Below are positions 17,661 to 24,594 of a stretch of DNA of 33,961 bases, piece after piece (the first letter of the stretch is position 1; each line of letters opens with the position of its first letter). The DNA comes from Planctomycetota bacterium. Its GTDB lineage: Bacteria > Planctomycetota > Phycisphaerae > SM23-33. The position numbers and the translations under genes are program-made. The notes below the pieces were generated by a model that saw only the letters and a program-made list of their open reading frames with translations, did not search any database and was not told the origin of the DNA. The stretch covers positions 1-33,961 of the forward strand of contig DAOVZK010000022.1 in the NCBI GenBank assembly GCA_030635145.1, given 5' to 3'.

Positions 17661-17809
17661 TTTTGCTAACGAATCCTTTTGTCTGAATCACCCAACATTA
17701 TAGACAAAAACACCGCGAGCCACGTACGCTTTTTTGAAAATTCAAAATCTGAAGCGAATTTGGAAAACTGCTACCCCGCCCCGCCTTATATTGCCCCCAC
17801 CGCAGGTGG

Positions 17810-19714: not shown

Positions 19715-21214
19715 ATGTCGTTAGCAAAATCTTCAAATGTTTTAGTTGCTTTACTACTGCTGTGTTGCAGCGGTGCAGTTACTTGCGGTCAGCAGCGCAA
19801 AGCTCCTGCCAAACCAAGCCTCGCCGATAAAATCGCCGTTACCGTTGACGCCTATCAGAAGAAAAACCCCCGCACGCAAATCGGCGTAGCGGTCGTAAAC
19901 GTAAAAACCGGCAAGACGGTCTACTCATACAATGCCGAAACTCCACTGATCCCAGCCAGCAACCAAAAACTGTTAACTACCGCGTTTGCTCTGGAGCAGC
20001 TTGGAACGAAATTCAAATTCCGCACGAAGGTGTTGCAATCGGCTGGGGGCGTTATAATCGTCGGGGATTTCGATCCGACGTTGGGCGATCCGATAATTTC
20101 ACGCCACGAAAAAAAGAGCATCTATAGCGAGCTTGACCTTTGGGCCGCTGCCGTAAAAAAAACAGTCGGGAGCAAAATTTGCGGCGACATGATTCTTTAC
20201 AATCGCGGCCGCGGGGCAGAATCAAAAAACCCCTACCACCCCGACTGGCCCAAGCGGCACAGATTCGTCTGGTATGGTGCACCCGTCGCTGCTCTGAATT
20301 TTCACGACAACTGTTTCGACGTTACGTTCGCGAACATCAAAGGAAAAATCACGCCCTGCGTTGCACCGGCGTCGCGGTTTATCAAGGTCGTCAACAAAAC
20401 CCAACCTGGCAAGAAGCAGATATGGAAGTTGAGATCGAATGATGATGACTCGGAAGTTACAGTCAGCGGTAAGGTACGTTCGGCGTCGAAATTTCCGCTA
20501 AGTACACCGGCGTCGAATCCTCCGATGCTGCTGGGTTGGACGTTTTTGGATCGGCTCGCGAAAAAAGATGTCGCTCTGGGCGGAAAGCTGCGTGTTGTTT
20601 CCACCGCCCCGACGGGCATGGAAAAAGCGACAGACATCTGCGAAACGCAAACCCCAATCGCCACCGCCGTTAATCGGGCCAACAAACGCTCGCTGAATCT
20701 CGCCGCCGAGTGCCTGTTTCTGCGGGCTGGGGATGGTACGTGGAAAAACAGCGGCAAGATAATGACCGACACGCTGCTGAAAAAGTTTGGTTTGGATCCA
20801 AAGGGTATAACCGTTCGTGACGGAGCGGGATTGTCTCGCCAAAATCGTATCTCACCGGCTAACATTACGAAGCTGCTGGATAAAATGCTTAAACATGACG
20901 GGGGCCAGCTGTTTTTGACGTCGCTTGCACGCAGCGGACTTGACGGAACGATGCGACGGCGGATGAAATCGCACGAAACTAAAGGCAGAGTGTCGGCGAA
21001 AACCGGATACCTAAACGGCGTCGTCGCTTTAAGCGGATACGTCGTCGACCCGCAGGGCGAACCGGTCTACGCGTTTTCGATTATCCTGAACAAGGTTCGC
21101 GGAGTTTCACGGGCAAGAGGGGTTCAAGACGACATCTGCAGAATCCTCACCAGTGGCACTGGAGGCGATAATGGCAACGCCAGTGGTAATAACCGCGAGC
21201 CGCGGAGGCAATAA
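19715..21214 (+). CDS. dacB: D-alanyl-D-alanine carboxypeptidase/endopeptidase, PBP4-type (S13)
   Basis: This penicillin-binding protein trims peptidoglycan peptides in the periplasm. From ATG 19715 it has 499 residues with a signal peptide (VLVALLLLCCSGAVTCG). The three active-site motifs are present: SxxK as SNQK at 82-85, SxN as SLN at 326-328, and KTG at 429-431. The insert between SxxK and SxN is typical of the S13 family. The frame stays open back to a GTG at 19646 that overlaps the end of pfkA, but the signal peptide supports 19715; no strong Shine-Dalgarno is seen. The C-terminal 21 residues, from TSGTGG to the stop, are encoded by a hairpin array that supplies the stop codon, so this tail is probably recent. 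The 19670-19700 leader shares GGTGGCATGGTCA with the reverse strand at about 21385-21397. Confidence 0.92.
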   Translation: MSLAKSSNVLVALLLLCCSGAVTCGQQRKAPAKPSLADKIAVTVDAYQKKNPRTQIGVAVVNVKTGKTVYSYNAETPLIPASNQKLLTTAFALEQLGTKFKFRTKVLQSAGGVIIVGDFDPTLGDPIISRHEKKSIYSELDLWAAAVKKTVGSKICGDMILYNRGRGAESKNPYHPDWPKRHRFVWYGAPVAALNFHDNCFDVTFANIKGKITPCVAPASRFIKVVNKTQPGKKQIWKLRSNDDDSEVTVSGKVRSASKFPLSTPASNPPMLLGWTFLDRLAKKDVALGGKLRVVSTAPTGMEKATDICETQTPIATAVNRANKRSLNLAAECLFLRAGDGTWKNSGKIMTDTLLKKFGLDPKGITVRDGAGLSRQNRISPANITKLLDKMLKHDGGQLFLTSLARSGLDGTMRRRMKSHETKGRVSAKTGYLNGVVALSGYVVDPQGEPVYAFSIILNKVRGVSRARGVQDDICRILTSGTGGDNGNASGNNREPRRQ

Positions 21215-21305
21215 TAATCGGCTTCGGGGCTTCTTTTCTGTCATCCTCCCGTACGGGGGAGGATGACACCGGCAACGCCGGAGGTAATAAAAGAGCGAAG
21301 CTCTT
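21150..21305. repeat. Array of hairpins with different stems and conserved linkers
   Basis: Five short hairpins with 3-nt loops can be read: CCAGT-GGC-ACTGG (21150-21162), TGGC-AAC-GCCA (21172-21182), CCGCG-AGC-CGCGG (21193-21205), CCGGC-AAC-GCCGG (21269-21281) and AAGAGC-GAA-GCTCTT (21291-21305). Between the third and fourth lies a larger one, TGTCATCCTCCC with a 6-nt loop and its complement (21239-21268). The first four small ones are followed by AGGCGATAA, GTGGTAATAA, AGGCAATAA and AGGTAATAA. Stems differ while pairing is kept, and the linkers are conserved. The array begins inside dacB and extends about 90 bp beyond its stop. Confidence 0.8.
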
Positions 21306-21361
21306 GCCCTCATCGGTTGGAATTAAAAATTCCGTGTTGGATATTGGATATTCAATTCTTT

Positions 21362-21440
21362 CATGGCCAGCGGAGTACCGTTGACCATGCCACCCATGAA
21401 TAGCGAATTTGGTCGGCAATGGCCGACCCTACTTCTACCA
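21362..21440. repeat. Intergenic repeat with GGTCGG palindrome
   Basis: GGTCGG (21411-21416) and CCGACC (21423-21428) enclose CAATGG, followed by CTAC; read in reverse it is GTAG-GGTCGG-loop-CCGACC, like the other GTAGG-bounded palindromes at 13367-13421. The flanking part at about 21385-21397 repeats, inverted, a 13-bp sequence from the pfkA-dacB gap. It lies just after the lysC stop codon (convergent with dacB) and might serve as a transcription end. Confidence 0.5.
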
Positions 21441-21458
21441 TGTCGCCACCAATGCAGC

Positions 21459-22748
21459 CTACTTTTTGGTCTTCTTCGCCGTCTTCTTCTTGGCTGCTTT
21501 CTTGGCAGTCTTCTTTTTAGCCTTGGGCTTTCCGCCTAGCTCGAAAGCATCGTGCACCAGGCGCAGGGCCTTTACGCCCTGGGATTCTGCGATAAGGCAG
21601 GAGATTTTGATCTCGCTGGTGGTGATGTTCTGGATGTTGACCTTCGCTTTGGCCATGGCGGAGAACATGCGCTCAGCTACGCCGGTGTGAACCCGCATCC
21701 CGACGCCAACTACGCTAACCTTGGCGAGGCCCTTGTCGTAAACGACTCCGCACTTGAGGGTCTTGGCGAGCTTGTCGCAAACAGCTTTGGTGTCGGAAAG
21801 CTCCGAAAGCTCAATCGTAAATGATATCGACGCGGTCTTTTTGCACTTGTCGACCGTCTGAATGATATCATCGACGACGATATCATGCGTCGCCATGGTG
21901 TGAAACACGCGGGCTGCAACGCCCGGGGTGTCGGGTACGTTGACAAGGCTTACGCGTGCGAGTTTATCTTTGAGGGCTGCGCCGCTGACGAGGATCTGTT
22001 CCATAGATTCTGTTTCTGCCACGATCAATGTTCCTTTTTTGGTATTCAAACTGCTGCGGACGTGAATTGGGACGTTATACTTTTTCGCGAACTCCACTGC
22101 CCTATTGTGCAGCACGTTCGCACCAAGTGATGCCAGCTCGAGCATTTCGTCGTAGCTGATCTTGTCGATTTTTTTCGCGGTGGGAACCTTTCGCGGATCG
22201 GTTGTGAAAATTCCGTCGACGTCGGTATAGTTTTCGCACATGTCGGCTTTGATGGCGGCGGCGATGGCAACGAGCGTTACGTTGCTGCCTCCGCGCCCGA
22301 GCGTCGTAATGGCGCCGGATTCGGTTACGCCCTGGAAACCGGCGATGATGACGATTTTACCGGCGTCAAGTTCGCGGTGAATCTTATCGGCGGCGATTGA
22401 CTTGATCCGCGCCTTGGTGTGCCGGTCGTCAGTCACCATGCCGATCTGCCCAGCCGTGAAACTAATCGCCGACGCACCCATCGCCTCAATCGCCATCGCC
22501 ATCAAACTGATGGTAACCTGTTCGCCCGTGGAAAGCAGCTGATCCCACTCGCGTTTGGGGGCGGGTTTGCCCTTCATCACCTCGCGAGCCAAATCTTCAA
22601 GCTGGTCCGTCGTTTTGCCCATAGCCGAAACGACCATCACCACCTGATTACCGCCCTTCTGGGCACGAATGGCACGCTTGGCGGCTTGGCGGATCTTCTC
22701 CGCGTCTGCCACCGACGTACCGCCGAATTTCATAACCACAATGCTCAT
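21459..22748 (-). CDS. lysC: Aspartate kinase with C-terminal lysine-rich tail
   Basis: Aspartokinase phosphorylates aspartate, the entry to lysine, threonine, methionine and diaminopimelate synthesis. The 429-residue monofunctional protein begins MKFGGTSV (KFGGTSV at 7-13) and has the kinase domain to about residue 250 (GRGGSNVTLVAIAAAIKAD, then YTDVDGIFTTDPR). Tandem ACT regulatory domains follow (about 265-405; VSLVNVPDTPGVAARVF, VSVVGVGMRVHTGVAERMF), so feedback inhibition is expected. After GG at 405-406 it continues for about 23 residues of Lys/Ala/Thr repeats (KPKAKKK, AKKAAKKK, AKKTKK), like histone H1 or HU tails and absent from ordinary aspartokinases. GGAGA about 11 nt upstream of the ATG is the Shine-Dalgarno. 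No lysine riboswitch is visible in the leader. Confidence 0.95.
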   Translation of the reverse strand: MSIVVMKFGGTSVADAEKIRQAAKRAIRAQKGGNQVVMVVSAMGKTTDQLEDLAREVMKGKPAPKREWDQLLSTGEQVTISLMAMAIEAMGASAISFTAGQIGMVTDDRHTKARIKSIAADKIHRELDAGKIVIIAGFQGVTESGAITTLGRGGSNVTLVAIAAAIKADMCENYTDVDGIFTTDPRKVPTAKKIDKISYDEMLELASLGANVLHNRAVEFAKKYNVPIHVRSSLNTKKGTLIVAETESMEQILVSGAALKDKLARVSLVNVPDTPGVAARVFHTMATHDIVVDDIIQTVDKCKKTASISFTIELSELSDTKAVCDKLAKTLKCGVVYDKGLAKVSVVGVGMRVHTGVAERMFSAMAKAKVNIQNITTSEIKISCLIAESQGVKALRLVHDAFELGGKPKAKKKTAKKAAKKKTAKKTKK

Positions 22749-22938: not shown

Positions 22939-24594
22939 TCAATCACTCGAAATGTCGCGGAGTTTCTCCAAAGCCTTAAGCTCGATCTGCCGGACGCGTT
23001 CCTTGCTGATGCCAAGATCCTTGCCGACCTGCTCGAAAGTTTTAGACTCGCCTTTTTCGTTCAGCCCGAAATGGCTCATCAATACCGTCTGTTCCCGTAG
23101 CGAAAGATGCGACAGCAGCTGTTCAATGTCGTCGCGAAGTTCGGCAATTCCGCCCTCCTGCGGTTCGTACGTCCGCAGCCCAGCGGCGATGTCCAGCAAC
23201 TCGTCGTGGCCGGTCGAAAAACGGTCGAGGTGATAACGCTCCTTCGGGACACTGCGGGCAAAATTCCGCATGATGGCCCAAGATGCGTAGGTGCTGAAAC
23301 GAAAACCGCGAGCGTAATCAAATTTCTCCACGGCCCGCATCAGAGAAATGTTACCATCGCTGACAAGCTCGAAAAGATTCAACGGCCCGCTGATGTGACG
23401 CTTGGCAATCGAAACCACGAGGCGAAGATTCGCACGCACGATCTGATTCTTCAAGACATTGGCCTGCAACAAAAGCGTCTCGATCCGCTTAACATGATTG
23501 GCCTGGATTCGATTAAGATCGATGCGTTTGCGGAATTTGTCGGCGGTGTATTTGAGGAAATTGTAGCGACGGAAAAGGCTTTGCTCTTTTGCCTTCGTCA
23601 GCAGCGGTACTTCGTAGAGGCTTTTGAGATACGGTGGTAAGTCGGCGGGGGCTTTAACGGGCTTGGCGGGGGCTTGCTCTTCGGGTTCAGCAACAACCGT
23701 GAGAATAACTTGGTCGGCATTGGCGGCGTCGAATTCTTCGTTGTAGACGTAGGAAATCGGCGACTCGAGCAGCTGTAACGCCCGAACCTCGTTGATAATT
23801 CGATAAATGCTTCCGCGTGTGCGGCGGTGCTGGGCGGCTAGCTGCTGAACTGCGATACCCTTGAGGAAGTCCTGATATATCCGCCGCTTTTTCACCTTAT
23901 CGAGCGACACGAGAAGATGCGGAAAGACCGCCTTGTCAGGGTTCTCGGCATCGTGCTTGCGTATCGTGTAACGCATCGTTTCGACAGCCCGCCCCGTATG
24001 CTTGGCCAAACGCTTTGCAACATCGCTAAGCGTACAGTTGGTAAACGAAACCATCCTGCGGGATCGGGCGATGATTCTTTTTCGGTCGACTTTGGTGAGT
24101 TTGGAAAATTTCGCGGATCGTTTGATCTCGGCCTTGTGAGCGCGGAAAAAGCGATTGACCGAACTTTCCAAAAACGCCAGCCGCCGCTTACCGTCGGGAA
24201 AAATCATGCGGCGGGCAACTAATCCCCTGTCTCGCCACCGCTGAACGGTTTTGGTCGAAACGTTGCTGTTCTTGGCGAGCGTTTCGTTGTCGAGAGTTTT
24301 TTCGTCGTAATCAGATGTCCGCAGCTCGAAACTGTCGCAGATGTCGAGAATGAGAGTCAGCAAATCCTTCTTCAACTCCCCACCCTGCATCAAATGCCCC
24401 TGATCCGTAACGGAACTCGAAGGTGAATAACCCGTCAGGCGGTACACCACAAACTCGTATGGATAGGGCTTGCTGTCATCGATAAGCAGTATCAAGTCCT
24501 CGGCGGCGTCCACGTACCCCTTGCGAAGTCGTCCCAGTGCGGAACACAACTCGCTCCCCAGCTCCATAATGATCTTGTTACTGTATTTACGCAT
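22939..24594 (-). CDS. Sigma-70-family factor with HTH-rich N-terminal half
   Basis: The C-terminal part is a sigma-70 factor: region 1.2-like segment at about 319-356, region 2 at 386-450 (NLRLVVSIAKRHISGPLNLFELVSDGNISLMRAVEKFDYARG then FRFSTYASWAIMRNFARS), and region 4 at about 487-545 with the -35 HTH (TFEQVGKDLGISKERVRQIELKALEKLR). Region 3 is nearly missing: 35-40 residues connect regions 2 and 4. The N-terminal 300 residues are unusual: a MerR-like HTH at 103-152 (NETLAKNSNVSTKTVQRWRDRGLVARR), a second HTH-like stretch at 187-214 and a third at 241-272 (IAVQQLAAQHRRTRGSIYRII). This suggests extra promoter contacts or DNA-dependent control. AGGGG precedes the ATG closely. A group-2-like regulator is likely; the regulon is unknown. 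Confidence 0.88.
   Translation of the reverse strand: MRKYSNKIIMELGSELCSALGRLRKGYVDAAEDLILLIDDSKPYPYEFVVYRLTGYSPSSSVTDQGHLMQGGELKKDLLTLILDICDSFELRTSDYDEKTLDNETLAKNSNVSTKTVQRWRDRGLVARRMIFPDGKRRLAFLESSVNRFFRAHKAEIKRSAKFSKLTKVDRKRIIARSRRMVSFTNCTLSDVAKRLAKHTGRAVETMRYTIRKHDAENPDKAVFPHLLVSLDKVKKRRIYQDFLKGIAVQQLAAQHRRTRGSIYRIINEVRALQLLESPISYVYNEEFDAANADQVILTVVAEPEEQAPAKPVKAPADLPPYLKSLYEVPLLTKAKEQSLFRRYNFLKYTADKFRKRIDLNRIQANHVKRIETLLLQANVLKNQIVRANLRLVVSIAKRHISGPLNLFELVSDGNISLMRAVEKFDYARGFRFSTYASWAIMRNFARSVPKERYHLDRFSTGHDELLDIAAGLRTYEPQEGGIAELRDDIEQLLSHLSLREQTVLMSHFGLNEKGESKTFEQVGKDLGISKERVRQIELKALEKLRDISSD

Follow-up and report, generated by a model that had tools for sequence, protein, structure and literature searches.

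A dispersed family of REP-like hairpins with covarying loop and tag in an uncultured planctomycete

Short REPs and related hairpin elements

Short REPs combine a small palindrome, variable in its stem and fixed in its loop, with a tag located 2 nt from the foot (PMC8266576, PMC3733652). Complementary stem changes in REPs are on record (PMC2817692), as are REP-like families without GTAG (PMC6006769). In vitro, the REPMb and REPSm repeats were found to tolerate stem swaps and not mismatches, with particular loop bases being essential, including the loop G of REPSm (PMC8266576). For the group 3 TnpA_REP enzymes, no structural data exist according to the authors of PMC8266576. Class 3 of the TnpA_Y1 enzymes is mainly planctomycete and acidobacterial (PMC6006769).

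The hairpin family described here was compared with the short REPs of group 3 (subclass 2.5) TnpA_REP, namely Marinomonas REPMb and Pseudomonas GTAG-1 (PMC8266576, PMC3733652, PMC6006769). Common to both are a perfect 5-bp stem, a small loop and a tag tetranucleotide 2 nt from the foot, along with variable stems kept perfectly paired, many intergenic copies and arrays. The geometry of REPMb (GTAG, 2 nt, 5 bp; PMC8266576) is close to that of the family. The family differs in a lower-strand tag which is TTRC and not GT[AG]G, in a 3-nt loop, GYT, which covaries with the tag, and in flanking no cognate gene. The lower-strand loop of most copies is the GCT of Stenotrophomonas REPSm, a perfect palindrome with a 3-nt loop, although REPSm has an 8-bp stem with GTAG directly at the foot (PMC8266576). 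No report of loop–tag pairing for REPSm was found in the excerpt of that study.

Classes 2.6 and 3 of TnpA_Y1 have atypical REP-like hairpins which, like the family, are multicopy and without GT[AG]G; the class 3 foot, CnGA, is unlike that of the family (PMC6006769). The IS200/IS605 terminal hairpins similarly carry a 5′ guide and are recognised by structure and loop, but their guide pairs with the cleavage site, whereas in the family the tag matches the loop of the same element and nothing at any flank position. A cargo with a terminal hairpin at a fixed distance on its left and on its right, as expected of IS200/IS605 elements or derived MITEs, was not found. Of the features that define REPs, the family has the short, multicopy, mostly intergenic palindrome and the BIME-like arrays of alternating orientation; a GTAG/GTGG (or CGTC) tag at the foot is absent, the TTRC of the lower strand lying 2 nt off.

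The initial annotation knew of no family with such properties. This is not supported, as short REPs share the architecture (PMC8266576, PMC3733652) and REP-like families with other tags are known (PMC6006769). What is new here is that the loop covaries with the tag, whereas REP diversity, complementary stem changes and non-GTAG REPs are already on record. No mention of tag–loop covariation was found in the papers cited here, and targeted full-text searches of open-access literature returned nothing relevant on pseudoknots or covariation in REPs; an earlier mention is possible.

The array at dacB and its dispersed family

The window, the whole stretch of 33,961 nt that was analysed, is contig C83 of a 2.38 Mb Phycisphaerae MAG of 90 contigs (about 93% complete, ~7% missing). 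The features of interest are as follows, with covariance scores in bits.

17788..17809, minus strand: fifth window copy, between a uvrC-like gene and pfk; stem CCACC/GGTGG, loop TGC, tag GGGCAATAT; 23.1 bits
19646..21214, plus strand: dacB (Peptidase_S13); its last ~20 codons are copies 1-3
21150..21171, plus strand: copy 1; stem CCAGT/ACTGG, loop GGC, tag AGGCGATAA; 27.8 bits
21172..21192, plus strand: copy 2, degenerate; 4-bp stem TGGC/GCCA, loop AAC, tag GTGGTAATAA; 19.3 bits
21193..21214, plus strand: copy 3; stem CCGCG/CGCGG, loop AGC, tag AGGCAATAA; 30.9 bits
21239..21268, no strand assigned: interposed palindrome of another dispersed family; TGTCATCCTCCC-GTACGG-GGGAGGATGACA, 12 bp, 100% complementary
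21269..21290, plus strand: copy 4; stem CCGGC/GCCGG, loop AAC, tag AGGTAATAA; 33.0 bits
21459..22748, minus strand: aspartate kinase-like gene (AA_kinase + ACT), convergent with dacB
22939-24594, minus strand: 551-aa protein; its C-terminal end contains sigma-70 regions 2 and 4, and a weak HTH match lies mid-protein

At least four hairpins with different stems and a near-identical linker, reaching into dacB, had been described from the sequence. The four are all present, three with 5-bp stems and one with 4 bp, and copies 1-3 lie inside the Peptidase_S13 reading frame. The loop is complementary to the tag in each, GC to GC in copies 1 and 3 and AC to GT in copies 2 and 4. The array strand folds better than 200/200 shuffles (z = -3.8). 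Copies 3 and 4 are separated by the interposed palindrome, which is unrelated to the hairpin family, and the array is therefore a mosaic. Similar TGTCATCC units are present elsewhere in the genome. The TGTCATCC...GGATCCAG palindromes, at 21239-21268 of the window and at many other loci, are mixed into the arrays of the family and resemble CGTC/TGTC-tagged REPs with CCA tails.

The alignment of dacB homologues ends at about residue 501 and is followed by 0-29 unconserved residues. Beyond this aligned part, the window protein has ~20 residues encoded by copies 1-3, which argues that the insertions rebuilt a dispensable C-terminus. The protein ends at the tag of copy 3, whose last TAA (21212-21214) is the dacB stop codon. 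An AGG motif and stop codons in the linker had also been pointed out; such content looks incidental, because the orientation of the copies is unbiased with respect to tandem genes (15:12). The convergent aspartate kinase has its closest relatives in Phycisphaerae MAGs. No Rfam match was obtained in 20900-21500 up to E=1. A terminator reading of the array was rejected, as no intrinsic terminator or terminator-like site was found in 21100-21460, and the tail after the hairpin is A-rich on the top strand.

The array hairpins are members of a dispersed multicopy family. The element is 22 nt in length and consists of a 5-bp stem, a 3-nt loop and then N-G-G-Y-A-ATAA. The genome sequence was read in stretches (1.16 Mb), and a covariance model, trained on perfect stems, was built from 42 copies. 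At least 132 copies were found in the genome of the window (E<=1, 150 candidates scored), and the stem variant GGCAACGCCNGAGGYAATAA has 21 occurrences with <=2 mismatches, against 0 for a reversed control. In 1.13 Mb, a perfect hairpin with a 5-bp stem and 3-nt loop ends exactly 1 nt upstream of 16/142 GGCAATA and 9/137 GGTAATA sites, compared with 0-3 in the other 14 geometries. Together these make 25/279 sites, as against 0-4 for the other 14 offset and loop-size geometries, a count free of the perfect-stem training bias. GGCAAT and GTAATA are also among the most enriched 6-mers after such hairpins in a scan without prior choice of linker. The absence of further copies, or as many matches by chance, had been named as grounds for dismissing the pattern; the genome presents neither.

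In 34 genomes of the same taxonomic family the model gave 0-7 matches each, which looks like background, and 396 sampled genomes of the class gave 0-3 each under stricter filters. Only 5/22 matches outside this genome have a fully complementary tag, compared with 104/121 within it, and apart from one cluster they are background-like only. This small cluster of the same hairpin type lies in another genus of the same taxonomic family (L201; G042 C122, 1500-1565), adjoins variable-stem hairpins of a GCAGCG-tag type and looks genuine.

Covariation of stem, loop and tag

At least 26 distinct 5′ stem arms occur in the family. The stem is perfectly paired in 103 of the 121 distinct copies, 98.3% of stem cells are paired and both sides change in all five pairs; the divergence of stems with kept pairing, first noted in the array, is thus real and genome-wide. 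With the loop–tag pairs included, 96.8% of cells are paired. The covariation test that had been proposed gave a pairing and a covariation score reached by 0/500 shuffles. One-sided stem changes are limited to 8/605 cells, and this low rate, like the stem pairing, is partly selected for by the training on perfect stems. A count of wobble types in imperfect stems, used as a test of strand, gave 19 A.C against 14 G.T with background included, and no clear strand signal.

Loop bases 2-3 are complementary to tag bases 3-4, with AAC accompanying GGTA, NGC accompanying GGCA and GCG accompanying GCGA. In an unbiased MI scan of all 231 column pairs, the top six were the five stem pairs and loop2:tag4, the sole strongly coupled non-stem pair, while the seventh had about one third of the weakest top-six value. 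The contingency of loop2 A/G against tag4 T/C is 38:5 and 1:71 (Fisher p = 9e-24). The loop3:tag3 pair is weakly supported, its variation being confined to a few GCG copies, some of them gathered with a purpose-made pattern. Switching of loop and tag occurs within the single stem classes CCGGT, CCGCT, CCCCT and GCGGT. The initial annotation had recognised the stems and missed this coupling.

The coupling was also seen in copies outside the model-building set, where 149/164 loop–tag pairs matched (shuffle mean 118, maximum 135 in 20000 shuffles). Among perfect hairpins with a loosely defined tail, loop 2-3 matches tail 3-4 in 44/69, divided into GC/GC (26), AC/GT (15) and CG/CG (3). In an ungated pattern count, 5/5 stem pairs were accompanied by a complementary tag at 118:5, and 0-2 stem pairs (no hairpin) by a complementary tag in ~55%. 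A role of the tag as a guide choosing the target or cleavage site is not supported: it predicts tag-dependent flanks, and 0/50 positions within 25 nt vary with the class of tag that a copy carries (minimum p=0.096).

The lower strand of the element reads 5′-TTATT-XY-2 nt-(5-bp stem)-Y′X′T loop-(stem)-3′. This layout may form an H-type pseudoknot, in which a 2-nt connector spanning the 5-bp stem would be feasible. The upper-strand fold would be less comfortable, its connector having to cross the other groove, and the lower strand is therefore the likelier active one.

Genomic setting, Y1 genes and interpretation

Copies are found singly or in arrays of variable spacing and orientation, often mixed with other palindrome families. 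With ORFs called by length alone, so that some intragenic cases are spurious, long ORFs exclude 63/93 copies but only 14% of random positions. Neighbouring copies show every relative orientation, frequently with 0-40 nt between them in a BIME-like manner, and both strands can carry copies within one array. Among the 150 copies, 41 adjacent pairs are <=120 nt apart, of which 15 are (+-), 9 (-+), 9 (++) and 8 (--). No strand bias was seen relative to a GC-skew proxy for the leading and lagging strands (34:33). Palindromic elements, TGTCATTGCGAG...GCAATCTC and GCGGCAATCT, repeatedly abut copies at the same junctions, GGCAA|CCGGC and CAATCTCG|CCGCT (L111, L140, L158, L234, L235 and others), suggesting composite mobile units.

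The genome contains eight Y1_Tnp (HUH) genes, and the repeat-associated transposases suggested earlier as a check are among them. In NCBIfam, the tested proteins include four similar IS200-type members, and REP_Tyr_transpos is matched by two above the cut-off and by one below; the C37 copy matches it above the cut-off too. On C75 and C37 the flanks of the Y1 genes carry GTAG-headed palindromes, and on C18 and C9 other palindromes. A separate palindrome family flanks each of the non-IS200-like genes (L128, L129, L130, L127): GTAGGGTCGGCCATTGCCGACC, GTAGGCCGGGTCTTGACCCGGC, GTGGTTGCAAAAACCGCAACCAC, AAATAGGGGACGTTCCCCTATTT. The four IS200-like genes (L123-L126; G000 C20, C80, C56, C3) are flanked by variable-stem, GAA-loop hairpins with a [GA]CAGAA-type tag, and these hairpins are present elsewhere in the genome too. 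The Y motif of the four genes, Y---Q--HH, is that of TnpA_Y1 subclass 1.2, described as being without REPs (PMC6006769). In those Y1 proteins of the genome that were translated, the class 3 motif (NHVH, YV[VI]xEQ) was not observed.

None of the eight Y1 genes is immediately flanked by the AGGYAATAA family as a cognate tyrosine transposase gene would be, in a genome whose ~93% completeness means that such a gene could be missing. The copies nearest to Y1 genes are a few hundred bases off, at C75, C56 and C3. A weak Y1 fragment (C50:6919), considered as a decayed cognate enzyme, is spurious and has no family copies around it.

The family could consist of terminal hairpins or MITE-like remnants of the four IS200-type elements, a derivative moved by the same enzyme. 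The hairpins that flank those genes, with variable stems (GCCCC, GCCCT, GTCCC, GCCTC), a 3-nt loop and a G[GA]YA-type tag, such as GCCCC-GAA-GGGGC + GGCAGAAA, are of similar design. Their GAA loop, however, has no complementarity to the tag. The families are two separate ones, between which no intermediate was found, and this origin is considered very unlikely. The repeats may instead be passive palindromes without a protein reader, their arms kept complementary by replication template-switching in hairpins and their loop–tag match inherited from a few founder subfamilies. The scarcity of one-sided changes fits this, since arm copying would give simultaneous two-sided changes, as does the dominance of three loop–tag classes. 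Arm copying, however, leaves unexplained why the loop should match a tag that lies 2 nt beyond the stem. The match also appears repeatedly among copies of a single stem class, and the scarcity is in part a product of the perfect-stem model; this account is considered unlikely.

A tertiary-like pairing in the covariation, and an enrichment between convergent genes (31/59 copies in intergenic gaps, against ~17% of intergenic bases), are also what would be expected of small H-type pseudoknots in RNA, stabilising or processing mRNA 3′ ends under selection. Such a role is quite unlikely given the unbiased orientation relative to tandem genes, the presence of copies on both strands of single arrays, the lack of an Rfam match or terminator-like site in the array and the expansion of the family in one genome only.

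The variable paired stems and the tag–loop complementarity suggest mobile DNA elements of a REP-like kind that are recognised through the shape into which they fold. The preferred reading, with a probability of about 0.58, takes the array for a group of non-autonomous, REP-like ssDNA repeats in which the tag pairs with the loop of the same hairpin and the shape is read by a Y1 transposase. The lower strand, when single at replication, would fold into a hairpin, and the tag dinucleotide XY would pair with the first two loop bases. This compact shape, and not the stem sequence, would be bound by a Y1 (HUH) tyrosine transposase of the IS200/TnpA_REP superfamily, which would cut the element and place copies of it at further sites, most of them intergenic. 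With nothing but the shape being read, the stems and the tag–loop pair could drift while pairing is kept. A single-strand transposase of this kind would explain the variable paired stems, the arrays, the intergenic location and the one-lineage expansion; the ssDNA form, the acting enzyme, the role of the element and its mobility all belong to this model.

From the covariation, the tag should contact the loop in this family. That this pairing acts within the recognition fold, as a pseudoknot-like lock in one DNA hairpin, is a tentative proposal with somewhat less than an even chance of being correct. If true, the stem, loop and tag would all be free to change while two sets of base pairs are kept, and the lock would represent a new principle by which HUH transposases recognise hairpins. 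The family bears on the recognition of perfect short palindromes by TnpA_REP enzymes and on the role of the tag, since its more than 120 distinct natural variants, which keep loop–tag complementarity, point to one specific contact. An uncultured planctomycete also adds to the catalogue of REP-like repeats a family whose tag is not GTAG.
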